From the NCBI GenBank assembly GCA_025453925.1, contig JALOPK010000024.1:1-18036 (forward strand): 18,036 bases of DNA. The letters are read 5' to 3'. Position 1 is the stretch's first letter, and each line of letters opens with the position of its first letter. Below, piece by piece: positions 5,901-17,601 of this stretch. A program made the translations under genes and the position numbers. The notes under the pieces are model-generated. The model did not search any database. It saw nothing but the letters and a program-made list of their open reading frames with translations, and was not told the DNA's origin. The stretch is from Candidatus Eiseniibacteriota bacterium (GTDB lineage: Bacteria; JAFGKV01).

Positions 5901-8027
5901 GGCTTCAGCGTCACCGATCGCGAGAGCCCGGGCCGCCTGGGTTGCGGTCTGCCGCCACTGCCCGAGAGCTGCATGGCACACCGCCGTTCCGCGTGCCACG
6001 CGGATACCCATGGGCCCATCGTCGGGAGGAACACAACGTTCGACCATACGGAAGAGGCTCAAGGCGGTCTGGTATTCCCGCGTCTGGAGAGACTTCTCGG
6101 CCGCCGGCAGCCCAAGACCCAAGGCCTCGGGGAATGCTCCCGATTCCGCCAGATGCCACACCAGCGGCGCGACCCATTCCGAATCGTCGGGCCGGCGGGC
6201 GAGGATGGCCCGGGCCGCCCTGGCATGCAGTTGGGTGCGCTCGCTCGCATCCAGGGATGCCAGCAGACAATCCCTTAGCGCGGGGTACCGGAGCGCCCAT
6301 CCCCCTCCTCGGCGAACCACATGGGCGCCTTCCACAAGCGCCCGCACGGCCTCATCGAGTTCTGAGGCCGACGCGGCGGCCACTTCGCCCAGAACGTCAT
6401 CCGCATGGCGCTCGCCCAGCGCCGCGATTGCCGTCAGGACTCTCCGGTGGAGCGCAGGCATCGGCCCGAGCACCCCCCAGCTCGTCCATGCCTCGGGGGA
6501 CTGCAGGTCCGGAATGCTCTCCGCAATCCACTGACCGCCGCTCCGGCGAAGACTGCCCAGGGTGATAAGGTGACCAAGAATGTGCGGTACGACCGTGGGG
6601 TCCCCACCCGATGCCGCGTGGACTACCGCCGCGATTTCCGAGCCACAGGCTTCGATTCCAAGGCACGAGCAGACCAGGCGTGCCGTCTCGCCGCGGGTGA
6701 GGCGTCTCAGCCGGACGGTGCGAACATGGGGCCGGGCGCATACGCCCGAAATCGCGGCCTGCAGCCGACGAAGGTTCTCTTTGTCTACCGCGACGGTCAT
6801 CATCACCTGCTCGCCGGCCAGCAGCGGGCCCGCGGCGTCCAGGAATACGCCGAGGGAGTCGATGTCGCTCCGGCCGGGGTCGATCAGCAGGGAAAGAGGC
6901 TGGCCCGAGGCCAGCCGGGCGGCCTCCGCGAGACATCTGATCCGGGCTCCCATCGCCGGGGGAACATTGTCTCCCGCGGGTGCATCCGGTTGCGTCAGGG
7001 CCTGGGTGCGTCTGACGAGTTCGTGGATGAGATCGGCATGGGAGCAGGCATCAGGCCCGCCGACGGTGACCCGGTCGACGCCCGCGAGACCGAGTTCGAT
7101 GGACAGCCGCGCAAGCAGGTCTTCGGCCCGAGCCCCATTGTGTCCATAGACCAGCATCTGAGTTCCGCGGCCGTGACCGGCGAGCTCCATGGCCCGTCGG
7201 ATGAACCTCCATGGCCTTTCCTCGAATGTCGCGGGGAGGGCAGGGAGCGATATGCCGGGCCGCCTTCTCTCCCGAGCGCCGAGGAGGGCCTCAGCGGACC
7301 GCGGACGTTCGCCGGGCTCCTTGGACAAAAGTCGGAGCACGAGACGGGCCATGGCGGGCGAGACGCGGTCATTGATCTCGCGGGGGTCGCGAGGCTGCTC
7401 GTGAAGGTGAGCATCCAGGACGGCCTGTACGGAGTCGCGGGTAAAGACCGGCTGACCGGTGAGCACCTCGAACAGGGTCGCCCCCAGAGAGTAGAGGTCG
7501 GCGCGCCGGTCCGGACGGTCGCCCCGCACGAGCTCGGGGGGAGCAAACGCGGCCGTGCCCCTGAACCCCGCCCCCTCGGTCGGCTGGGGCCGGCAGAATC
7601 CGAAATCGGTCAGGACGGCTCGAGACGGAGGGGATCGGCAGCCGTCGAGGAGGATGTTGGACGGCTTGATGTCGCCATGAAGGAGTCCTCGACCGTGGGC
7701 GGCCTGCAGCCCTCGACACACGCCGTCGAGCAGCTTCCTCAAGCATCCCTCGCCCCACGTGAGGTATGCCTCCCGCAACGTCGGCCCGGCCACGTACTCC
7801 AGCGCCAGGTAGCGGCTCTTTGCGGACAGAAAGGCATCCAGCACCCGGACGATGTTCACATGATCCAGATCCGCCCACGCCTGGATGCCGGCCCGCTCGG
7901 GGTCATCACGGAGGAGCTTGACGGCAACCGTGGTGTGTCGCCAGTGATCCGTCGCACGATACACCCGCCCCTCACCGCCTTCGGCGAGAAGCGCTTCCAG
8001 CGTGTACCGGCCGGCCAGCAGACTCAT
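2973..8027 (-). CDS. Giant sigma-54-dependent activator: Ser/Thr kinase + degenerate NTPase + TPR + GAF + sigma-54 AAA+ + Fis HTH
   Basis: A 1684-residue one-protein signalling and transcription factor. Residues 7-245 are a Hanks-type kinase: Lys37 (VAVK), catalytic loop HGDIKPSN with Asp119 and Asn124, DFG at 141-143 and an APE-like PPE. The usual alpha-C Glu is not obvious and HRD is HGD. Residues about 270-600 resemble the NTPase module often placed after such kinases, but the P-loop position reads GHNGARAED (295-303) without the Lys-Thr/Ser, so nucleotide binding is probably lost. TPR-type helices fill about 620-1160. GAF spans about 1187-1335, followed by a short coiled coil. The sigma-54 AAA+ domain is intact: Walker A GETGTGKE at 1387, GAFTGA at 1434-1439, Walker B TIFLDE to 1459. 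A Fis-type HTH spans about 1640-1665. The start is chosen at 8027 because GGAGG (minus strand, 8034-8038) lies 6 nt upstream; a further ATG at 8063 falls inside a palindromic operator and lacks a ribosome site. It probably activates the sigma-54 promoters in 8028-8777. Confidence 0.92.
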   Translation of the reverse strand: MSLLAGRYTLEALLAEGGEGRVYRATDHWRHTTVAVKLLRDDPERAGIQAWADLDHVNIVRVLDAFLSAKSRYLALEYVAGPTLREAYLTWGEGCLRKLLDGVCRGLQAAHGRGLLHGDIKPSNILLDGCRSPPSRAVLTDFGFCRPQPTEGAGFRGTAAFAPPELVRGDRPDRRADLYSLGATLFEVLTGQPVFTRDSVQAVLDAHLHEQPRDPREINDRVSPAMARLVLRLLSKEPGERPRSAEALLGARERRRPGISLPALPATFEERPWRFIRRAMELAGHGRGTQMLVYGHNGARAEDLLARLSIELGLAGVDRVTVGGPDACSHADLIHELVRRTQALTQPDAPAGDNVPPAMGARIRCLAEAARLASGQPLSLLIDPGRSDIDSLGVFLDAAGPLLAGEQVMMTVAVDKENLRRLQAAISGVCARPHVRTVRLRRLTRGETARLVCSCLGIEACGSEIAAVVHAASGGDPTVVPHILGHLITLGSLRRSGGQWIAESIPDLQSPEAWTSWGVLGPMPALHRRVLTAIAALGERHADDVLGEVAAASASELDEAVRALVEGAHVVRRGGGWALRYPALRDCLLASLDASERTQLHARAARAILARRPDDSEWVAPLVWHLAESGAFPEALGLGLPAAEKSLQTREYQTALSLFRMVERCVPPDDGPMGIRVARGTAVCHAALGQWRQTATQAARALAIGDAEALPIAQRAELTLMLAKADSAVGTERDAERRLGELLEIPLPPPVRAEVMSAAAHVAAEGRRWVDAERHARAGLETGAADPSLRSSLENTLGVALLMQGRLEEARVPLEGSYHARESEGQELDAGRCALNLGILTRRAGSYAEARQWLRLALDRLGAAGAVSFLSQVHNTLGLLELTIGDPWGACASFARAVRLALESGRWRTACRALNNHGLAMNACGERAQARALFMEARVRARHRGDRSAERKALRNLANVWLDCGEAAQAEHCLSQVTALGPGSDDPEGSVVEMLCLARLKREQGLLDQAGTHMDDALRMVDEAGDAQLRLRTYCELAVLRIAQGRGEDAVRAAERAASSPGYQGTVDEVIVLRTLGQALASAGRHQDAASVLQRCLALAGDRPDAEETALVRLAVGRWLADGHQAGGFRAPERYLAQAADAFRRLGSALRLRDAEEALERLSSGATGGAAVATTRKLSALYRMLTLVNSAESAEGLLDQVLDLAVHAVGGERGLIILVDPASKDLVVRAKTEIDGATVADASRISEAVVRQVAGAGVPVFSDDALKDARFSDHDSIRLNRIACFACVPLTVRGVITGTIYVDSSDLSRRLVEDDISFLVAFANHAAIAMENRRLLAELEDENAQLHERLEASESIETLVGHSPGMMAVARAVRAVARSSVTVLIQGETGTGKELIAKAIHHLSPRRRGRFVTVNCSALPEGLLESELFGHARGAFTGATGETEGLFVAATGGTIFLDEIADMSLSLQAKLLRVLDSGEVRPVGRAAARQTDARVLCATNRDLHQAMEQGRFRPDLYYRIKVVVVRLPALRERRQDIPLLVSHFVSVYNERFGAQIRRVDRQAMAMLCARDWRGNVRELEHVVEAAVALSPGTVVDPDALTLVLDAPLSSRDGRLVGPLAEELRAAERQCLDRALKESGWNVSAAARRLAIGRRQIQRLMRRHDLGPAPPGPRRPGGNTEEARS

Positions 8028-8040: not shown

Positions 8041-8072
8041 TGTCGCATCTTGGTGTGCGACATTTTGTCGCA
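8041..8072. promoter_or_regulatory. Operator/enhancer: palindrome TGCGACA-TTT-TGTCGCA plus an extra half-site
   Basis: A perfect 7-bp dyad with a 3-bp centre occupies 8056-8072. A further half-site TGTCGCA lies at 8041-8047, facing the first arm across 8 bp. The 17-bp design (7-3-7) is that of NtrC/Fis-type sigma-54 activator sites, and the same arms recur twice at 8506-8541. It sits 14-45 bp upstream of the regulator start codon and about 95 bp upstream of a weak -24/-12 candidate on the plus strand. It could therefore serve both autoregulation of the regulator and activation of the divergent small gene. Recognition by the neighbouring Fis-type HTH is inference from position and symmetry. 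Confidence 0.75.
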
Positions 8073-8167
8073 TCAGCGCAACCTATGGTGAGGGGCTACC
8101 AGGGACAAGATCAAGGGGTGTCGACAGATCAGGGCGGCAGGGCTTCACGGCCCGCTTGCTGCATGGG

Positions 8168-8183
8168 TGGTGGGGTGACTGCG
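8168..8183 (+). promoter_or_regulatory. Weak candidate -24/-12 (sigma-54) promoter for the small exported peptide
   Basis: The stretch TGG-N9-CTGC has GG and GC with the invariant 12-bp register (8169-8170 and 8181-8182), but the rest of the consensus TGGCACG-N4-TTGC is poor. Its place, about 95 bp after the palindrome at 8056-8072 and about 54 bp before the start codon, fits enhancer-dependent transcription. In G-rich DNA such a match can arise by chance. Confidence 0.28.
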
Positions 8184-8224
8184 CGCTTCCTGTCATGCCG
8201 CAGCCGGTTCACCACCCCCGTCTG

Positions 8225-8231
8225 AGGAGGT
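8225..8231 (+). promoter_or_regulatory. Strong Shine-Dalgarno AGGAGGT of the small exported peptide
   Basis: Perfect anti-16S match with 5-nt spacing to GTG at 8237. It is the main evidence that this short ORF is translated from the internal GTG. Confidence 0.8.
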
Positions 8232-8236
8232 CCTCC

Positions 8237-8428
8237 GTGTCGAGACGCCAGGTCCGGTCGAGAGCCGCCATCGCAACCCTTCTGCTAGCGTTGTGCCTTG
8301 CCACTACTGGGATTTCCCCCGCACGCGCCGACGGAACCAGTGACAAGGATGACGATCCCTCGCCGGGCCGTCTTCCGGTTGTCACCTGGTCTATGGTGCA
8401 TGCATGGGAGCTGTGCCTCGTCCTGTAG
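8237..8428 (+). CDS. Small exported peptide, 63 residues, function unknown
   Basis: No family is recognised. The product begins with a basic n-region (VSRRQVRSR), a hydrophobic core (AAIATLLLALCLATTGI) and a cleavage-type end SPARA, so it should be exported. The Arg pair (SRRQV) loosely resembles a Tat motif. The predicted mature part is only about 32 residues: an acidic stretch (DKDDD), a Pro/Gly link, then a hydrophobic tail with two Trp and one Cys, ending LCLVL. The GTG start is chosen because a full Shine-Dalgarno AGGAGGT (8225-8231) lies five bases upstream; an in-frame ATG at 8156 has no such site. It is divergent from the giant regulator, has its own strong terminator, and follows a copy of the palindromic operator. 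A secreted signal, lipid-interacting peptide or toxin are all possible; none is shown. Confidence 0.65.
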   Translation: MSRRQVRSRAAIATLLLALCLATTGISPARADGTSDKDDDPSPGRLPVVTWSMVHAWELCLVL

Positions 8429-8444
8429 TCGCCGGCTCACTGAG

Positions 8445-8478
8445 AAGGGTCGCCCCTCTTGGGGGGGCGGCCCTTTTT
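8445..8478 (+). terminator. Rho-independent terminator after the small exported peptide gene
   Basis: A 12-bp stem (AAGGGTCGCCCC with GGGGCGGCCCTT, one G-T wobble), 7-nt loop, and a run of five T at 8474-8478. It begins 17 bases after the stop codon at 8426-8428 and separates this gene from the next promoter region. Confidence 0.9.
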
Positions 8479-8505
8479 CGTTGTCCCCACGCCCGAAAAG
8501 TCAGA

Positions 8506-8541
8506 TGCGACAGTTTGTCGCAGGTGCGACAAACTGTCGCA
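8506..8541. promoter_or_regulatory. Tandem enhancer: two 17-bp palindromes TGCGACA-N3-TGTCGCA
   Basis: Site 1 (8506-8522) has centre GTT and site 2 (8525-8541) has centre AAC; both have perfect 7-bp arms identical to those at 8056-8072. Centres are 19 bp apart. Site 2 is the exact reverse complement of site 1, so the whole block is one 36-bp mirror around GG. Located 120 bp upstream of the -24/-12 promoter at 8662-8677, it has the normal spacing and copy number of a sigma-54 enhancer. The probable binder is the Fis-type HTH of the giant regulator (inference). A hairpin role in RNA is less likely because a terminator precedes it. Confidence 0.82.
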
Positions 8542-8661
8542 CGACGCAAGGCATAACAGCCAGGACCGCTCTCGTCGCGTGCCGCCCCTTGATCGTGGGT
8601 ATGCCTTGCAGGCAAAGGAAATGGCCGCATGAGACGGGGAACGTCCGGGGGCCACCGGGAG

Positions 8662-8677
8662 TGGAACGCGGCTTGCA
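8662..8677 (+). promoter_or_regulatory. Sigma-54 (-24/-12) promoter of the SpoIIAA/STAS-like gene
   Basis: TGGAACGCGGCTTGCA matches the consensus TGGCACG-N4-TTGC(A/T) at all fixed positions except one (A for C), with correct GG/GC spacing. The transcript should start near 8688, giving a leader of about 89 nt before the GTG at 8777. It lies 120 bp downstream of the paired palindromes. It implies that the genome encodes RpoN, which is not in this window. Confidence 0.8.
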
Positions 8678-8776
8678 TTGATGGTGGAGATTGCCGTCTG
8701 GCTTGAGTCTCGGCCCTTGGAGCGGGTGCCCCGCCTCCTCCCTGCCGGGAACAGGAATCTCCGGAGGAACGCGACC

Positions 8777-9154
8777 GTGTCGTACATGACCGTGGAACGT
8801 CACCATCTCCACCTGCGTGCGATAGTGCGGGGCAACGGAAGCTTCGCATTGTCGCCGTCCAACGTGGATGACCTGCTCCACGCCGCGCGTGAGGAACTGG
8901 CCTCCGCGGTCTTGGTCGATGCTCGGGAGGCCGGGCAGGCCGCTGGCATCGTGGAGTGGTTCACGGTTGCGGACACTCTGGCACATCGTCGTCCGCCGAC
9001 ACTTCGGTCAGCAGCCCTCGTGGTGTGCGCCGGCCAACTCCGGGATGCGCGGTTCGCCGAGTTGGTGGCGCGCAACCGCGGATTGAACCTCAGGGTCTTC
9101 GAGGATGACCGGGCTGCAGTTGAGTGGCTGGAAGGTGACGATTGCGCGACATAG
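8777..9154 (+). CDS. SpoIIAA/STAS-like small protein (125 residues)
   Basis: Soluble protein without signal peptide or membrane segment. It has the feel of the SpoIIAA-like/STAS fold: alternating strands and helices, a central AVLVDAREA strand-turn, an ALVVCAG strand, then RFAELVARNRGLNLRVF followed by a C-terminal helix AAVEWLEG. The last segment is typical of small SpoIIAA-like proteins (VARNRGxNxRVF...AxxWL). It lacks a clear phosphorylatable Ser of classical anti-anti-sigma factors (inference from reading only). The GTG start is chosen because GGAGGAA (8763-8769) lies seven bases upstream and because starts before about 8688 would precede the sigma-54 transcript start. The ATG at 8786 is an alternative. 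It is likely a target of the giant regulator. A role in partner switching or as a regulated cytosolic binding module is possible but unproven. Confidence 0.8.
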   Translation: MSYMTVERHHLHLRAIVRGNGSFALSPSNVDDLLHAAREELASAVLVDAREAGQAAGIVEWFTVADTLAHRRPPTLRSAALVVCAGQLRDARFAELVARNRGLNLRVFEDDRAAVEWLEGDDCAT

Positions 9155-10156: not shown

Positions 10157-10708
10157 CTACCGCCCCTCGTCACGGTGCCGGGTGGAGATATCCGACACGT
10201 CGGCGCCAAGCTCAAGGGGTGGACGATTCGGCATCAAGGCCACATCAGGCGGCGTCCTGTCAGGAGAGTCGCCTCGGAACCCTGCGTGAGTGTCACACTC
10301 CTCGAACGATGGCTGCGCCCAGAGATCGGAGACCGCGGCAACAAACGGGGGAAACGTGCCGTGCCGCGGGGAAGGTCGGGGCATGTTGATGCCGACGAAG
10401 AGCAGGGCGACCGCCGCCACCGCAGCCGCAACCTGATACAGCGGGACGCGGTATGCCACGAGACGCTGGATCGCAGGCCGGGGGCGATGGGCGTGCGCAT
10501 GCCGCCGCATCAGGCGCTCCCGCACGTCGCCGGAGAGTGCGGGCTCAGGCTCGAACCGGAGGGCTCCAAGGGTGTCCGACATCTGCTGGCGAAGTGCCCG
10601 GCACGCCGGGCACACGGCACAGTGCTCCGTCATTCGTGCGGAAGGATGACCGTCTATGTCCTCAAACAGCTCTTCATCAGTCAGGTGGTCGTAAGTCGGG
10701 GATGTCAT
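10157..10708 (-). CDS. Zinc-finger anti-sigma factor, membrane-anchored
   Basis: A 183-residue partner of the adjacent ECF sigma factor. The N-terminal cytoplasmic part has the ZAS signature His29-x3-Cys33-x2-Cys36 (EHCAVCPAC), as in zf-HC2 anti-sigma factors. A His/Arg-rich linker (RRHAHAHRPRP) precedes one membrane helix at about 90-107 (LYQVAAAVAAVALLFVGI). The remaining ~75 residues would be periplasmic and show no known domain. Its ATG overlaps the sigma stop codon by four bases (ATGA, 10705-10708), so the two are translationally coupled. It should hold the sigma factor at the membrane until a signal causes release or cleavage. Three-gene operon with 10705-12434. Confidence 0.88.
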   Translation of the reverse strand: MTSPTYDHLTDEELFEDIDGHPSARMTEHCAVCPACRALRQQMSDTLGALRFEPEPALSGDVRERLMRRHAHAHRPRPAIQRLVAYRVPLYQVAAAVAAVALLFVGINMPRPSPRHGTFPPFVAAVSDLWAQPSFEECDTHAGFRGDSPDRTPPDVALMPNRPPLELGADVSDISTRHRDEGR

Positions 10709-11286
10709 GCGGTTCTCACCTCCTCGGATGCCTCATGGGCGAGCAGGGTGCGAAGGTCATGCAAGGCGCTGTGCATGCGGGTTCGTGCCGTAGCGGGCGG
10801 GATGGACAGAATGGCAGCGATCTCCTCATACGGAAGGTCGAGCCAGATGCGCATGACCACGACCAGCCTCTTGGGCTCGGAGAGCGCGGCAAGGAGGCGA
10901 CGCGCCAGCGTCTCCGCCTCGACCGGAAGCAAGCCGCCGGACTCCATGTCCGACGAGGCCGTCGGGCACTCCTCGGTCAACGGTACCGAACCGTCGTGTC
11001 GTCGCGCAGCCTTGCGGCCAACATTGAGGGCGATGGTGAACAGCCATGACCGGAATGCCCCCTGCGACCGGTACGACGGCAGCGCATCCATGACCCTGCA
11101 GAACGTATCATGCACCATGTCTTCCAGATCGGCCTGGTCACGGGCGTAGGTCCGCAGAAGCCGTGCCACGCGGCGCGCATACCGGTCATAGAGAGCGCCG
11201 AACGCCGCGGTGTCTCCCTGGCTGGCCCTGATGGCCAGCAGCTCATCGAGCCGGTCTGACCCCGCGACATCGACCTCGTCGTTCAC
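10705..11286 (-). CDS. ECF-type RNA polymerase sigma factor
   Basis: A 193-residue group-4 sigma factor. Region 2 runs from about FGALYDRYARRVARLL through DLEDMVHDTFCRVMDAL and AFRSWLFTIALNVGRKAARR. Region 4 is LSEPKRLVVVMRIWLDLPYEEIAAILSI... with the HTH PPATARTRMHSALHDLRTLL. The GTG at 11286 is chosen because it forms a GTGA overlap with the stop of the upstream TPR gene; longer in-frame extensions read into low-complexity Arg/Gly sequence that is the shadow of that gene. The following anti-sigma gene overlaps by 4 bp. It likely directs genes responding to the envelope signal sensed by this operon, possibly including its own promoter. Confidence 0.92.
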   Translation of the reverse strand: MNDEVDVAGSDRLDELLAIRASQGDTAAFGALYDRYARRVARLLRTYARDQADLEDMVHDTFCRVMDALPSYRSQGAFRSWLFTIALNVGRKAARRHDGSVPLTEECPTASSDMESGGLLPVEAETLARRLLAALSEPKRLVVVMRIWLDLPYEEIAAILSIPPATARTRMHSALHDLRTLLAHEASEEVRTA

Positions 11287-12434
11287 CGCGCCGCCAGCTC
11301 CTCCAAGTGCTGCTGGATGCTGGTCTCCCCGTGGAACTTGGCGATGCTGATGCCGATCTCCGCGAGACGTCCGGCGGACTCGCCGTCCCCGGCCTCCCGT
11401 GCGTCCTCCGCGGCCCTCGCGAGCACGTGCAGGTAGTTGGTGAGGAGCTTCTGCTCGGCGGTGCGGAGGTCCCACGGGTAGGTCCAGTCAGTGGCGCTGT
11501 CCAGCCGGTAGGTGTCACGGAACAGGGCCAATGTCTTCTTGTAGTCTGTGCGCTCGGATGATCCCGTGAGCCCGTCGACACGGGCGCAGAGCCCCTCGAT
11601 CGTGAGGGATCGCGCTGACCCCAGCCGGTCGAAGGGAACCGTGAGGGATATGTAGACGGGCCGCCGTCGTGTCTTCACGAGGTCTCGAATCACCGCCAAG
11701 GCGCCGCTGAAGGGGCCCTTCTCAACATCCTTCGAGATCTCCGGGAACCAGTCGGGATGCTGCTCTCTCATGGCGTTCGCATATGCGGGGCATCCCAGAA
11801 GGCTCTGGTTGAGCACCGTCACGTCGGTCCTGAAGCCCCGGCCCGCCTGCAGCGACACCAACGGATAGGTGTCATTGTCGCCATTGGTGACGAGCACGGC
11901 CCCCTCGGGCAGGCCCGCCAGGATGTTGTACCCGAAATCCCACACCGGCGTGTGGATGAGTTGACGTTCGTACATCTCCCGGGCGGTCTCGTAGGCACGA
12001 CCCACGCGGCCCGTGCAGGTGTGCAGCCCGTAGAGGCTGTAGAGCACGTCACCATAGGTGGGGTCTGCCGTGCGTGCGCGTTCAAACATCTCCGTGGCCC
12101 TGGCCACGTCGGCGGCGTTCCCATGGGTCCAGAGCTGGCAGGCATAAAGGTCCAGCGCCCGCGCGTAGGTAGGGCCCAGTTCCACCGCCTTGGCGTAGAA
12201 GGGGAGATAGGTGTCCTTGGCCTCGCCGGCGTACCGGTAGGCCTGGGCAAGATTCACGTAGCCCTCGGCGCTCTCGCCGTGGCGCTCCATGTAGTCTTTC
12301 CACTGCTGCGCCAAGGCTCGATACGCCGCGGGCGACAGCATCTTCTCCCGCAGACTCACCACGGGCTCGGGAGTCTGGGCAGTCGCTACGGTCCAGAGGA
12401 GTGAGAGCAACAGAAGGGAGATGATACGACGCAT
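11283..12434 (-). CDS. Exported TPR protein with a GDNDT motif, first gene of a sigma/anti-sigma operon
   Basis: 383 residues. Signal peptide MRRIISLLLLSLLWTVATA then Gln20. Residues about 35-160 are TPR-like helical pairs (GYVNLAQAYRYAGEAKDTYL, ARALDLYACQLWTHG, GDVLYSLYGLHTCTGRVG). Residues 184-213 (NGDNDTYPL ... DVTVLNQSLL) closely resemble the soluble motif found near the end of DUF2723-type membrane proteins, but no membrane helices follow, so this is a detached module rather than a glycosyltransferase. The C-terminus is helical. The start at 12434 is set by GGAGG (minus, 12440-12444) five bases upstream; an in-frame ATG at 12464 lacks a site and would mask the signal peptide. It is coupled by GTGA to the ECF sigma gene. 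A periplasmic sensor or regulator of that sigma pathway is a reasonable inference. Confidence 0.85.
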   Translation of the reverse strand: MRRIISLLLLSLLWTVATAQTPEPVVSLREKMLSPAAYRALAQQWKDYMERHGESAEGYVNLAQAYRYAGEAKDTYLPFYAKAVELGPTYARALDLYACQLWTHGNAADVARATEMFERARTADPTYGDVLYSLYGLHTCTGRVGRAYETAREMYERQLIHTPVWDFGYNILAGLPEGAVLVTNGDNDTYPLVSLQAGRGFRTDVTVLNQSLLGCPAYANAMREQHPDWFPEISKDVEKGPFSGALAVIRDLVKTRRRPVYISLTVPFDRLGSARSLTIEGLCARVDGLTGSSERTDYKKTLALFRDTYRLDSATDWTYPWDLRTAEQKLLTNYLHVLARAAEDAREAGDGESAGRLAEIGISIAKFHGETSIQQHLEELAAR

Positions 12435-12649
12435 GGCATCCTCCATGGATGATGAGAGACTCATGATACAAGGCCCGGGCTCCTTCAGGTAGAATCCCCG
12501 TGCATCGTGAAATGTTCATCGCATGGCGATCGGCAGCCCAATCCTTGCTGCGACGGGGAGTGGTTCGTAACGTGCGTGAAGATCCAAAGGGCGCCCTCCC
12601 TCGGAGTCCAGGGCGGATTGGCGTGGCGCAGTCGAGAGGCGTGCCGGTG
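12435..12649. promoter_or_regulatory. Shared divergent promoter region of two sigma-factor operons
   Basis: A 215-bp region between the minus-strand TPR-sigma operon and the plus-strand CHAT-sigma operon. TAGAAT on the plus strand (about 12490-12495) and TATCAT on the minus strand (near 12461-12466) resemble -10 boxes, but neither has a convincing -35. No clear ECF-type GGAAC element was found. If the CHAT gene starts earlier (in-frame ATG at 12500) the region shrinks to about 65 bp. Confidence 0.45.
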
Positions 12650-15600
12650 ATGATTGACGATCCGAGAGCCAGTAGGCAGGTCGACCACACTCGTACCGGG
12701 TGGCTGCACGGCACTCCCCGGTGGCGGATGCTCGTGCATGTGCTGGCTCTTGCCGGCATGATCACCTGCGGTGATGAGCGAGACGGAGCGTCCCGATACG
12801 CCGGGGCTCGGGAGCGGGCCGTTGCGAACGAAGCTCAGCCCGGGTCCCCAGGTCGCCCCGTGTGGGAAACGACGAACCGCTTTCTTCCGATTCGAATTGC
12901 CATGGCATCCTGTGGTGACAGCCTTGCACGGGGTGCCTTTCTGGCGGCCTGGCGGGACAGCCTGCGGATCTCTCCGGAGGATCCGCGGGGCGACTACGCC
13001 GTGGGGCTTGCGTGCCTTGCCCAGGGAGAGGATTCCCTGGCCCTCAGCCATCTCCGGCGACTGATCGCCGCCGGGGTACGGGATCCTGTGTGCTATTCCC
13101 ACCTCGCCGAGGCCGCACGAAGAACCGGCACGCTGCCCGCCATCAGCGCCGACATATCACGCGGCTCCCGGGACACCACGTCAGGAGCCGACTGTGTGGC
13201 GGCGGGATCGATCTTCCTTGAGCTGGCCGCGTGGGATTCGGCGGCGGCCTGGGGGCGTGCCGCGCTCTCGGCGGGAACCGACTCGGGTGAGGCGCACCTG
13301 CTCCTGGCCCGGGCACTCCGCGGGCAGGGGCGCCTGGAGGAGGCCGCACAGGAGGCTGACGCGGCTGCGTCACTGGCAGCCCGCGCGAGTGACCACGAGT
13401 TGCGCGCGAGGAGTCTGGATGCGATGTGCGTCACCTATCGAGCGCATGGCGAGCGGTTTCGCGCCACCGCGGTGGGCACTGAGGCGCTGCACCTTTGCCT
13501 CCGGCACGGTCTGCGACACCTGGAAGCCCCGATCCGTTGCGAGTTGGGCTACCTGCGGCTGCGTCAGGGAGATGGGCCGGGCGCCTGCCTGCTCCTCCAG
13601 CGCGCGGTGGCCGTGGCTGACAGCGCGGGCGATCGAAGAAGCCTCGGGTGGGCAACGAAGTTGCTGGGGGATGCGCGGGCTGTGCAGGGTGATCTTGAGG
13701 ACGCGGAGGCGCTGCTGGGCCGGGCGCTCGTGATGCTTGGCGCGGTACGAGACCCGGAAGGGCCGGCCGCCTGCCTGGACGCCCTGGCGGGACTGGCTGC
13801 GGGTCGCGGTCAGGTGAGGAAGGCCGTGGCGCACTATCAGGAGGCACTCGCGCTGCATCGGGCCCGCCGTGACGGGCGGGCGGAGGGGGCCACACTGGTC
13901 AATCTGGCGTCTACCTGGCTGGAGCACGGTGAGGTGGCCGACGCAATTCGAAGTTTCCATCAGGCGATTCGGGGTGCGGCTGCCGGGGGCGACTCCATGA
14001 CCATTGCCGCCGGATCCATTGGTCTGGGTAACGCGTATCTGACACTCGGTGACCTGGCGCGCGCGGATGAGATGCTCCAGCGGGGGCTGGCGCTGGCGCG
14101 GGCGCGTCACGACACGGCTGCGATGGCCCGGGCACTGGGTGCCGCGGGTGCCCTTGAGTTCCGCAGGGGAAACCTGGGGAAGGCACGAGAACAATTCCAG
14201 ACCGCCGGAGGCCTATTTGAACGACTCAATGACCGGCGTTCCATGGCAGCGGCACTCATGAATGCCGGCATATCGCAACTGCATGACGACGCCCGGCGCG
14301 CGGCGAGTTCGATTCGGGAGGCCCTGGAGGCCTTCACCGGCTGTCATGACGCCTATGGTCGTGCCGCCGCATGGGCCTCGCTGGGCGAAATCTCTTTGGC
14401 CGCCGGCAGGATTCGGGACGCCGACTCGCTCTTTTCCGGGTGCCTCGATCAGGCCGTCGCGCTGGGCGCTCCTGACCTGACATGGTTCGCCCAGTATGGG
14501 GTCGCGCGCTGCCGCGAAGCGGCGGATGACTGGGAGGGAAGCCTCATGATGTATGAGGCAGCCACGAGCACGGTGGAACACGCCCGGACCCGGCTTCCGG
14601 CCCACGAGTGGCGGTTCGCGTTCCTGGCTACGACCATGGAGATCCCCGAGCGCCATATCGGCCTGTTGGCGGCACTGGACGACCGCTGGCCGTCCCGTGG
14701 ATTCGCCCGTCGAGCATTCGATGTGGCCGAGGCAGCGAAAGCCCGCTCATTCCTCGATCTCCTGAGCGAACCAGAGCGCCGGAAGGCGCGGCATGACGAC
14801 CCCGACGGGGAGATCAAGGCAGCCTTGGTCATGGAGATCTCCAGTCTCAGCAGGGCACTCTGGCAACTGCCTGAAGGCTCACTCCAGGCGGTGTCGCTTC
14901 GTCGGCAGGTGGCCGCCCGCGAAGACGAACTCAACCGTCTTCAGTCCTTGTCTGACCAGTCCTGGCGCGAAGATCGAGCGTCAGCACCCAATCCTCTGGA
15001 GAGGCTCCAGAGTTCCATGGGTGCTCGCGGAACGGGGCTGCTCCTGGAGTACGTCACCGGGAAGGCCGGCTCGTTCCTGTGGCTCGTGAGACCCGACACT
15101 GTGCTGTTGCGGCGCGTGCCCGACCGTGGCCGGCTCGCCAAGCTGGTGAGACCCCTCATCGATGCCCTGCGCATGCCTCCCCGCATAGGCGCGTATGATG
15201 AGACGGGGCTTCGCGCTCTGGCGGAAGCCGTGTTGCCTTCGCCCGCCTGGTTCGAAGAGACATCAGGCGGGATCTTCATCGTGCCGGATGGCCCGCTGTG
15301 CTATGTTCCGTTCGAGACCCTCCCAGTGGCGATGGATTCCGCCGGCTCGGCACTGATGATCGAGCGCGGCCCCGTGAGCTACGCGCCTTCGGCCGCGGTC
15401 TTGCTCTCGGTCTGGAACCGGGGCCCATCCCCGGCGGGAGGCACCGTCTTGGCAGTGGGAATACGTGATGCCCACGGTCTCGAACCAGTCGGGGAGGGGA
15501 ATCACATAGGTGGGGCGCCCATGCTTCCCCCGTTGCGCTACGCGGAGGCAGAGGCGGAAAGCGTTTGCGCGTCGTTCCCACCGGGTTGTTGTACCAGTGT

Positions 15601-16096
15601 GATCGGCCTCGACGCCACGGAAGGCCGGGTAGTACACGAGTTGCAGGAGCCCTATGCCATTGCCCATCTTGCCACCCATGCCATGATTAACCTTGAAGCG
15701 CCAAGGAGCTCGTGTATCGTCCTGAATCCTGGGCCTGCCAGCGGCGATGACGGCGTGCTCGTCTTCGATGAGATCCTCCAGCTCTCGTCGTCACCTCGGC
15801 TCGTGGTGCTGTCGTCTTGCCAGAGCGCGTTGGGGCAGTTGATTTCCGGCGAGGGAATAGTGAGTCTCTCACGGGCGTTCTTTCACGCGGGAGCACGGAC
15901 CGTGCTGGTGACGCTGTGGCCGGTGAATGACCGGTCGGCCGTATCCTGGATGAGCGAGTTCTACCAGTGCCTCGCCGAGGGAGCATCACCGGACCAGGCG
16001 GCGAGAGCGGCCAAACTGCGGCTTCTCCATGGGCATGCGCCGGCAACGCGTCATCCGTACTACTGGGCGCCCTTCGTGCTCATAGGAGGGAGCTGA
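12650..16096 (+). CDS. TPR-CHAT cysteine protease
   Basis: About 1148 residues. A hydrophobic segment MLVHVLALAGMITC (27-40) follows a basic stretch, so the protein may be exported or membrane-tethered; the Cys40 context is a poor lipobox. Residues about 80-640 are many TPR units (for example GARGQ-, EGATLVNLASTWLEHGEVADAI, MTIAAGSIGLGNAYLTLGDLARA). A helical linker follows (AKARSFLDLLSEPERRKA). The C-terminal ~290 residues are a CHAT domain, a caspase/separase-fold peptidase, with both catalytic residues present: His1010 in HLATHAM (codon at 15677) and Cys1057 in VVLSSCQSALG (codon at 15818), then GEGIVSLSRAFFHAGARTVLVTLWPVND. The start is uncertain: GTG 12647 or ATG 12650 has AGAGG upstream, while the frame is open from an ATG at 12500. 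It is followed four bases later by an ECF sigma gene. Substrate unknown; the anti-sigma factor encoded two genes on is an attractive candidate. Confidence 0.9.
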   Translation: MIDDPRASRQVDHTRTGWLHGTPRWRMLVHVLALAGMITCGDERDGASRYAGARERAVANEAQPGSPGRPVWETTNRFLPIRIAMASCGDSLARGAFLAAWRDSLRISPEDPRGDYAVGLACLAQGEDSLALSHLRRLIAAGVRDPVCYSHLAEAARRTGTLPAISADISRGSRDTTSGADCVAAGSIFLELAAWDSAAAWGRAALSAGTDSGEAHLLLARALRGQGRLEEAAQEADAAASLAARASDHELRARSLDAMCVTYRAHGERFRATAVGTEALHLCLRHGLRHLEAPIRCELGYLRLRQGDGPGACLLLQRAVAVADSAGDRRSLGWATKLLGDARAVQGDLEDAEALLGRALVMLGAVRDPEGPAACLDALAGLAAGRGQVRKAVAHYQEALALHRARRDGRAEGATLVNLASTWLEHGEVADAIRSFHQAIRGAAAGGDSMTIAAGSIGLGNAYLTLGDLARADEMLQRGLALARARHDTAAMARALGAAGALEFRRGNLGKAREQFQTAGGLFERLNDRRSMAAALMNAGISQLHDDARRAASSIREALEAFTGCHDAYGRAAAWASLGEISLAAGRIRDADSLFSGCLDQAVALGAPDLTWFAQYGVARCREAADDWEGSLMMYEAATSTVEHARTRLPAHEWRFAFLATTMEIPERHIGLLAALDDRWPSRGFARRAFDVAEAAKARSFLDLLSEPERRKARHDDPDGEIKAALVMEISSLSRALWQLPEGSLQAVSLRRQVAAREDELNRLQSLSDQSWREDRASAPNPLERLQSSMGARGTGLLLEYVTGKAGSFLWLVRPDTVLLRRVPDRGRLAKLVRPLIDALRMPPRIGAYDETGLRALAEAVLPSPAWFEETSGGIFIVPDGPLCYVPFETLPVAMDSAGSALMIERGPVSYAPSAAVLLSVWNRGPSPAGGTVLAVGIRDAHGLEPVGEGNHIGGAPMLPPLRYAEAEAESVCASFPPGCCTSVIGLDATEGRVVHELQEPYAIAHLATHAMINLEAPRSSCIVLNPGPASGDDGVLVFDEILQLSSSPRLVVLSSCQSALGQLISGEGIVSLSRAFFHAGARTVLVTLWPVNDRSAVSWMSEFYQCLAEGASPDQAARAAKLRLLHGHAPATRHPYYWAPFVLIGGS

Positions 16097-16100
16097 TTCG

Positions 16101-16655
16101 GTGTCATCGGTCCCAGCGGTTCCCTCGGATGAAGCGTTGATCCAGGAAATCCACGCGGGCAGCGCCCGTGCGGAGCTGGCGCTGTGGGAGCGGTATCGGC
16201 CACGCATATGGTTCTTTCTGCTCCGCCGACTTGATGGCGACCGGGAGGCGGCTCGTGATCTGGAGCAGGAGGTCTTCGTCGCGCTGCTTCAGGCGATTCG
16301 TGACGGGCGCTTGACTCAGAGCGGGAACCCGGGAGCCTATCTCTACAAGACCAGCTCGAACCTGGCAACGCGCTGGATGCGGCGTGTGCGTCGCAATACT
16401 CCAGTCGGGGACGCCGACCTCACGAGGACTGACGATACACCGGAGACGATTCACCTTACCCAGGAAGCCCATGAGACGTTGCGCCGTATGGTGGGAGCGA
16501 TTGCGGCGCTGGACCGGCGCATCCTCGACTTGCGGTTCGGGGAGGAGTGGAGCTACCGCCGGATTGCGGGGGAGCTCGGTCTGAGCGAAGACTCCGTGCG
16601 GCAACGCGCCTGCCGAACAGTGGCAGGACTCCGGAGAGGGCTCAATGACCGGTGA
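16101..16655 (+). CDS. ECF-type RNA polymerase sigma factor (CHAT operon)
   Basis: 184 residues. Region 2: LALWERYRPRIWFFLLRRL, AARDLEQEVFVALLQAI, GAYLYKTSSNLATRWMRR. Region 4: IAALDRRILDLRFGEEWSYRRIAGEL with the HTH GLSEDSVRQRACRTVAGLRRGL. The GTG start lies four bases after the CHAT stop and uses GGAGGGA at 16085-16091, inside the end of the CHAT gene, so the two are co-transcribed. The N-terminal PSDEALIQEIHAGSARAELAL is the usual ECF lead-in. It is only distantly similar to the sigma factor at 10705-11286, so the two operons are not a recent duplication. Its anti-sigma partner is most likely 16855-17601. Confidence 0.9.
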   Translation: MSSVPAVPSDEALIQEIHAGSARAELALWERYRPRIWFFLLRRLDGDREAARDLEQEVFVALLQAIRDGRLTQSGNPGAYLYKTSSNLATRWMRRVRRNTPVGDADLTRTDDTPETIHLTQEAHETLRRMVGAIAALDRRILDLRFGEEWSYRRIAGELGLSEDSVRQRACRTVAGLRRGLNDR

Positions 16656-16827
16656 GAGCGCCTGGATGAGAACGCACCGGAAATGGAGGGACGGCCTCCG
16701 CGTCGACCACACCCGCGCTGCAGAGCGGTTCCGCGCCACGTACTCCGCCGCTCGCGTGTCACAGAACAGGGGGATCGTGAACATGGTAGGTGAGGGCGCG
16801 GCCTTGATGGGTAGCGAGGCAGGATAG
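16645..16827 (+). CDS. Small hypothetical ORF between sigma and anti-sigma genes (doubtful)
   Basis: 60 codons, starting inside the sigma gene end with GGAGAGG nearby (about 16632-16638). The product is basic and without recognised motifs (MTGESAWMRTHRKWRDGL...). Third-codon GC is high in the first half only. It fills the otherwise unexplained 199-bp gap before the anti-sigma gene. It could be a small peptide, or leader sequence that happens to be open. Confidence 0.28.
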   Translation: MTGESAWMRTHRKWRDGLRVDHTRAAERFRATYSAARVSQNRGIVNMVGEGAALMGSEAG

Positions 16828-16854
16828 TGACCATGACGAATAGAGGAACAGGCC

Positions 16855-17601
16855 ATGGCGATTGACCACGATCCGTTGAGCGTAATGCGGACCATTGAAC
16901 GCTACCTCGGGGGAGAACTCAGCCCCGAAGAGCAGCAGGAGTGGGAGGAGCACTACTTTCAGTGCGCCCAGTGCTTCGAGACACTGGAGGCGACGGCACA
17001 GATCAGAGAGCATTTCAGGGAAGAGGCCCGAGAGCGACTCCGTGAGGGCGGCCGTCCCGCGTCGCGACACCGCTTCCGCCTCAGGGCGCTGACCCTCCCG
17101 CAATGGCTCTTGCCGGCCCCGGCCTGGCGCCCGTCCCTGGCGGCAGCGGCAGCCGCCATCATCGTGGCCATCCCGGCAACGATGGGATGGCTGCGCCTGG
17201 CCTCCTTGCGACAGGAGGTCAGGCAGCTAAGGATGCCGGGCGTGGCCTCCTTGACTTATGTTCTGGATGAAGGCGTGCGGGGCGTGGAACCCGCAGTGAC
17301 CATCCCGGTCGATGCCGGCAGATTCCTTCTCCAGTTCAATCTCGTCGGTGAAGAAAGAGAGGCGACGACCCGCACCGCCCGCATCCGGGATGCATCGGGA
17401 CGCGTGGTGTGGGCGGGCGCGGGCCTTGCGGGCCAGGGGCCCTACGGCACCTTCGTCATCTCGTGCCAAAGCTCTTTCTTCAACCCTGGCGACTACGAGC
17501 TTATGGTCGATGAGGTGCGGAGAGATGACGGAACGGTACTGAACAGCTCGGTCTTCGCGTTCCGGGTCACGGGCGCCACCAGGCAGGGAACGGGCCAATG
17601 A
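16855..17601 (+). CDS. Zinc-finger anti-sigma factor with large extracytoplasmic domain (CHAT operon)
   Basis: 248 residues. N-terminal zinc-binding anti-sigma motif His33-x3-Cys37-x2-Cys40 (EHYFQCAQC) following YLGGELSPEEQQEWEEH, the classic zf-HC2 lead-in. One membrane helix at about 94-113 (PSLAAAAAAIIVAIPATMGW). The C-terminal ~130 residues (about 120-248) would be extracytoplasmic and look beta-rich (VTIPVDAGRFLLQFNLV, YGTFVISC, GDYELMVDEV), suggesting a ligand- or protein-binding sandwich. The next gene overlaps its stop by four bases (ATGA). It is the likely antagonist of the sigma factor at 16101-16655. Whether the CHAT protease cleaves it is a hypothesis. Confidence 0.85.
   Translation: MAIDHDPLSVMRTIERYLGGELSPEEQQEWEEHYFQCAQCFETLEATAQIREHFREEARERLREGGRPASRHRFRLRALTLPQWLLPAPAWRPSLAAAAAAIIVAIPATMGWLRLASLRQEVRQLRMPGVASLTYVLDEGVRGVEPAVTIPVDAGRFLLQFNLVGEEREATTRTARIRDASGRVVWAGAGLAGQGPYGTFVISCQSSFFNPGDYELMVDEVRRDDGTVLNSSVFAFRVTGATRQGTGQ

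Follow-up and report, generated by a model that had tools for sequence, protein, structure and literature searches.

Organization of the locus

The window (the whole 18,036-nucleotide stretch of DNA that was analyzed) holds the gene of a giant kinase-headed activator on the minus strand and, divergent from it, two small plus-strand genes, one for a predicted exported peptide and one for a STAS-fold protein (Table 1). Between these genes lie three copies of the dyad TGCGACA-N3-TGTCGCA with perfect arms, at the positions given in a preliminary description of this DNA. That description had passed over the peptide gene, the -24/-12 element in front of it, an additional half-site and the 36-bp inverted repeat discussed below.

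Table 1. Features of the activator, peptide and STAS-fold genes and their intergenic regions (window coordinates).
Feature	Position	Strand	Remarks
Giant activator, 1684 aa	2973-8027	-	Pfam; full-length orthologue in G002
Activator domains (residues)			Protein kinase 8-248; NTPase-like/TPR region ~290-1100; GAF 1192-1331; sigma-54 AAA+ 1359-1525 with lid; Fis-type HTH 1623-1662 (Pfam)
Extra half-site TGTCGCA	8041-8047	.	Between first dyad and regulator start; not seen in G002
First dyad, TGCGACA-TTT-TGTCGCA	8056-8072	.	Proposed upstream activator site of peptide-gene promoter
Peptide-gene sigma-54 -24/-12 element, CGGCCCGCTTGCTGCA	8148-8163	+	9/12; 75 bp past first dyad
Small exported-peptide gene (predicted), 63 aa	8237-8428	+	GTG start; AGGAGG Shine-Dalgarno sequence
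Terminator-like hairpin of peptide gene	8445-8478	+	
Tandem pair, copy 1, TGCGACA-GTT-TGTCGCA	8506-8522	.	
Tandem pair, copy 2, TGCGACA-AAC-TGTCGCA	8525-8541	.	19 bp from copy 1
STAS-gene sigma-54 promoter, TGGAACGCGGCTTGCA	8662-8677	+	11/12 consensus; GG-N10-GC
STAS-fold protein, 125 aa	8777-9154	+	Orthologue in G002; structure model

The activator carries the domains of an enhancer-binding protein: its AAA+ sigma-54 interaction domain was recognized as PF00158 (E 2.9e-66), a GAFTGA motif is present in the translation, and the C-terminal Fis-type HTH matched PF02954 (E 6e-8). A full-length orthologue (49% identity) is encoded at C108:5393-10534 in a genome of a sister genus within the same family (G002), on a contig that is the Candidatus Fermentibacteria record JAUXFG010000104.1. 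Because the alignment of the two proteins runs from the ATG at 8027, we set the activator start at that position. Their HTH regions are strongly conserved (RRQ[IV]QRLMRR). Apart from this record, a scan of the genome collection returned two weak partial matches only. No full-length activator was found in a 94% complete genome of the window’s own genus (G001), where matches were limited to the common GAF-AAA+-HTH part.

The peptide has a signal-peptide-like N-terminus, a DG-x4-DDDPSPG motif and a Cys near its C-terminus; its export is predicted by a crude rule based on hydrophobicity. The orthologue in G002 (L042 11274-11513, 79 aa, 43% identity) has the AGGAGG sequence, the signal-peptide-like start and DG-x4-DDDPSPG in common with it. 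No family in Pfam, NCBIfam or PHROG matched the peptide, whose gene is the sole ORF of such a kind adjoining the regulator. A second match coding for DDDPSPG in the window’s genome, on contig C240, lies outside any small exported ORF and looks like a chance occurrence.

The STAS-like label given to the third gene was borne out. The protein matched no Pfam family at E 1, and its AlphaFold2 model (pLDDT 91) has a SpoIIAA-like beta-alpha fold, and both Foldseek and VIA-align matched it to STAS proteins; among solved structures, anti-sigma factor antagonists and RsbS came out best (Z 11.9 with 4qtp and 11.8 with RsbS 6jhk). Its orthologue in G002 (L042 12301-12738) is 36% identical.

When the window and the G002 contig were compared in translation, only the regulator, the peptide gene and the STAS gene matched in order; the genes flanking them differ. 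In G001, neither a full-length regulator nor a STAS gene or perfect dyad was found. The three genes thus appear to form a cassette that is inherited, lost or moved as one unit. Its retention in a related genus makes it very likely that the arrangement is genuine. Within the cassette, the regulator is the sole recognized DNA-binding protein. We also considered the cassette as an anti-phage system and rejected the idea: there was no match to the cassette as a whole, and PADLOC matched only the kinase and AAA+ domains.

Distribution of the dyad

In the window, the next-best match to the dyad has three mismatches, so the earlier count of three copies stands. Under a first-order Markov model, chance alone would give 0.00013 perfect dyads in the window and, over 3.9 Mb, about 0.03. 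The whole assembly of the window’s genome, G000 (3.9 Mb, 502 contigs, 82% complete), contains exactly five perfect dyads and none with one mismatch. They fall at two loci, the window (three) and contig C196 (two, at 1372 and 1581). Three of 193 genomes have a perfect dyad: G000 (five copies), G002 (one) and G162 (one, within a long open frame). Among the three related genomes that made up our within-phylum comparison (G000, G001 and G002), dyads occur only in those that have the kinase-headed regulator, and, as the preliminary description had anticipated for related genomes, the regulator orthologue in G002 has dyads next to it, one perfect copy and a tandem pair that is degenerate. We saw no motif common to dyads near kinase-headed activators of other genomes. 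No description of the operator TGCGACA-N3-TGTCGCA was found in the literature, where the top ten of 194 matches to its arms were all unrelated papers.

The first dyad and the peptide gene

The first dyad sits between the regulator and the divergent small gene in both G000 and G002, which poses a question: which of the two genes does it serve? The two genomes align here without gaps from the dyad (C108:11090-11106 in G002) to a -24/-12 element 75 bp on (TGGCCTCTTTCCTGCA at L042 11182-11197 in G002), and they also have the Shine-Dalgarno sequence in common. On C196, a -24/-12 element again lies 75 bp from a dyad, the one at 1372, on the minus strand; the gap is therefore exactly 75 bp at three loci in two genera. 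A composite pattern (dyad + 76 bp + GG-N9-TGC), searched with zero mismatches in the three genomes, returned these three places only (window 8056, C196 1282-1388(-) and G002 C108 11090), and the reversed pattern, run as a control with up to 3 mismatches, gave 0–2 matches per genome. When the flanks were Markov-shuffled 20,000 times, an offset common to all three loci never arose (0 of 20,000), and one common to the window and G002 alone arose 22 times; this shuffle test was run once the 75-bp gap was known, and it scanned every offset between 20 and 200 in either direction. The fixed gap is the strongest single result of the analysis.

The distance from the dyad to the regulator start, on the other hand, is 28 bp in the window and 555 bp in G002. 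Because the gap to the peptide promoter is identical and the distance to the regulator varies, we have reassigned the site, once attributed to the regulator, to the peptide gene, for which it would chiefly serve as the upstream activator site. As far as sequence constraint can tell, the peptide gene is the most tightly constrained of the putative targets. The preliminary description had instead held that the regulator controls itself through this dyad, with the tandem pair driving the STAS gene. In the window, the dyad does stand immediately upstream of the regulator ATG with a further half-site in between, and the G002 dyad coincides in part with a weak sigma-70-like site of the minus strand, but about one such site is expected by chance. 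Moreover, a search within 200 bp of the window’s first dyad showed no good -24/-12 element directed at the regulator. The regulator may still control itself, but the analysis lends this no support, and we judge autoregulation an unlikely account of the site.

The C196 dyads and promoter indicate that the regulon extends beyond the cassette; the earlier term “self-contained” does not fit a system that has a third promoter, equally spaced, and a further two perfect dyads on another contig. As sigma-54 matches, the promoters of the peptide gene and on C196 are moderate (8–9/12), and the orphan gene on C196 starts about 430 bp past its promoter. Its product has no recognized family in Pfam, NCBIfam or PHROG, was found among the 41 genomes searched only as itself in the window’s genome, and gave a single-sequence model with a pLDDT of 40. 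At the left end of this contig (L011, 1-433), a membrane-protein-like plus-strand frame overlaps the end of the minus-strand orphan gene, and a contig misjoin near that end, or a frameshift, is possible.

The tandem pair and the STAS-fold gene

Copy 2 of the tandem pair is the exact reverse complement of copy 1, and the pair as a whole is a near-perfect 36-bp inverted repeat. It precedes the STAS promoter by 120 bp, as had been claimed. That promoter, correctly singled out before as a strong one, is the best sigma-54 match among the 36,042 window positions on both strands. G002 has the corresponding pair (C108:11589-11605 and 11608-11624, two mismatches each, same 19-bp spacing) and the corresponding promoter (TGGCACGGTATCTGCA, L042 12171-12186, 11/12), and the top sigma-54 match of each of the two contigs stands just before the STAS gene. 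There, however, pair and promoter are 546 bp apart. Among the sigma-54 promoters of Desulfovibrio vulgaris, the largest group is found <100 nt from the nearest activator site, and four are >300 bp away (PMC4641369), so that long enhancer distances have precedent. Tandem copies of GTGGCGCAGGTCA occupy L042 11810-11880, between the G002 pair and the promoter, and are perhaps the cause of the longer distance. Activation of the STAS gene through the pair, as first proposed, is supported by the near-consensus promoter before the gene in both genomes; the weaker and more distant pair in G002 speaks against it.

Could the pair instead act as an RNA hairpin, a terminator or small RNA, with only the single dyads being operators? 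Its inverted-repeat form would suit this role, as would G002, in which two changes in the outer arms compensate each other and a 14-bp stem and, behind it, TTTTC come right after the peptide gene (L042 11589-11640). This likeness to a terminator makes the operator role of the G002 pair less sure, and the pair there is best described as a putative operator that has perhaps turned into a terminator or serves as both. In the window, however, a separate terminator precedes the pair and no T run follows it on the plus strand. In addition, each half is a perfect copy of the single-dyad motif, and the 17-mer stands by itself at another three sites of the genome. A hairpin in place of an operator is therefore improbable in our estimation, and we retain the pair as a candidate operator of the STAS gene.

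Proposed regulon and mechanism

We consider it likely that TGCGACA-N3-TGTCGCA is the enhancer of the kinase-headed activator and defines a small regulon comprising the exported peptide, the STAS protein and the orphan gene. The dyads, the fixed 75-bp gap, the promoter matches, the co-occurrence and the conserved cassette, all legible in the DNA itself, point to this reading. The activator had already been named as the binder; the co-occurrence agrees (G002 has both, G001 neither), and the assignment itself derives from neighborhood and this co-occurrence only (two genomes with, one without). Sigma-54 activators are numerous in each genome, with 45 candidate matches in G000, and with the binder assigned by proximity another regulator, be it a sigma-54 activator or a repressor, could bind the dyads and leave the kinase-headed protein a mere fellow member of the cassette, but among the three related genomes dyads are confined to those that have the regulator, and the conserved cassette holds no second recognized DNA-binding protein. 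We judge this reading improbable.

We infer binding, activation, the direction of control, the use of sigma-54, the signal and the order of sensing, and put them together as follows. Each dyad would be bound by a dimer of the activator’s C-terminal Fis-type HTH. On sensing a signal, the GAF, TPR and kinase parts would free the AAA+ ring, and the ring would then contact and remodel sigma-54 RNA polymerase at the -24/-12 promoters. The targets would be the peptide gene, via the first dyad; the STAS-fold gene, via the tandem pair; and the orphan gene, via the two dyads on C196. The sigma-54 gene, rpoN, was found in G001 and G002 and was not found in the 82% complete G000 assembly.

Such a regulon would supply a concrete operator and target list for giant kinase-headed sigma-54 activators in an uncultivated lineage, that of Candidatus Fermentibacteria; no earlier description of a regulon of such activators was found in the literature searched, nor did our search find any publication dealing with kinase-headed sigma-54 activators, or with sigma-54 in Fermentibacteria. 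With its exact length of 75 bp, the dyad-promoter gap can help to find more members in new genomes.

Comparison with known systems

The arrangement is broadly familiar in kind. Regulons of the NtrC, NifA and NorR type likewise have an activator with a GAF-AAA+-Fis HTH core and a GAFTGA motif, acting at 17-bp dyads about 75–120 bp upstream of GG-N10-GC promoters. The window’s activator differs in having an N-terminal Ser/Thr-type kinase and a long TPR region, and its putative targets are a predicted exported peptide and a STAS protein. The kinase-headed architecture, which had been thought undescribed, is not unique to this lineage, judging by Pfam: the same order of kinase, TPR, GAF, sigma-54 activator and HTH domains recurs in at least two genomes from other phyla (G055 C7 and G036 C86). 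The similarity of these proteins to the window’s activator is limited to the GAF-AAA+-HTH part (37–39%); neither genome has an exact dyad, and no small exported ORF with a Shine-Dalgarno sequence adjoins either regulator.

Proteins of the RsbV/SpoIIAA type usually bear a phosphorylated Ser in the loop after the third strand. In the STAS-fold protein, this loop reads DAR in both the window and G002. Its likeness to SpoIIAA/RsbS-type proteins lies in the fold, as identities in the structural alignments are 11–13%.

A different parallel concerns the peptide. RRNPP systems pair an intracellular TPR receptor with an adjacent propeptide gene and are known from Gram-positive Firmicutes and their mobile elements (PMC10075063). 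Here, too, a TPR-containing cytoplasmic regulator adjoins a small gene for a predicted exported peptide (63–79 aa), apparently its target, and this adjacency is kept in G002. The present lineage is outside the Firmicutes, and the regulator has kinase and sigma-54 AAA+ domains. By analogy, the peptide might be a signal that returns to the activator’s TPR/kinase part, or is sensed via it, in an autoinducing sigma-54 circuit with the STAS protein as feedback partner. We hold this to be a long shot. The conserved peptide gene, exposed here as a probable target, nonetheless raises the prospect of peptide signaling outside the Firmicutes; if the circuit were real, this signaling would be autoinducing, with a sigma-54 output.

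Other features of the window

Downstream of the regulator, positions 1-2972 hold a minus-strand frame of >900 aa for a subtilisin-like secreted protease, running toward the contig edge; it is not conserved beside the G002 activator orthologue. Farther right are two apparent sigma-70-family (ECF-like) pairs of sigma/anti-sigma-like genes, at 10157-11475 (-) and 16101-17601 (+). The left-hand pair was judged by eye; in the right-hand pair, Pfam recognized sigma-70 regions at 16101-16655 and, weakly, zf-HC2 at 16855-17601. The two pairs flank a TPR-CHAT protein at 12602-16096, whose CHAT domain was identified by Pfam.
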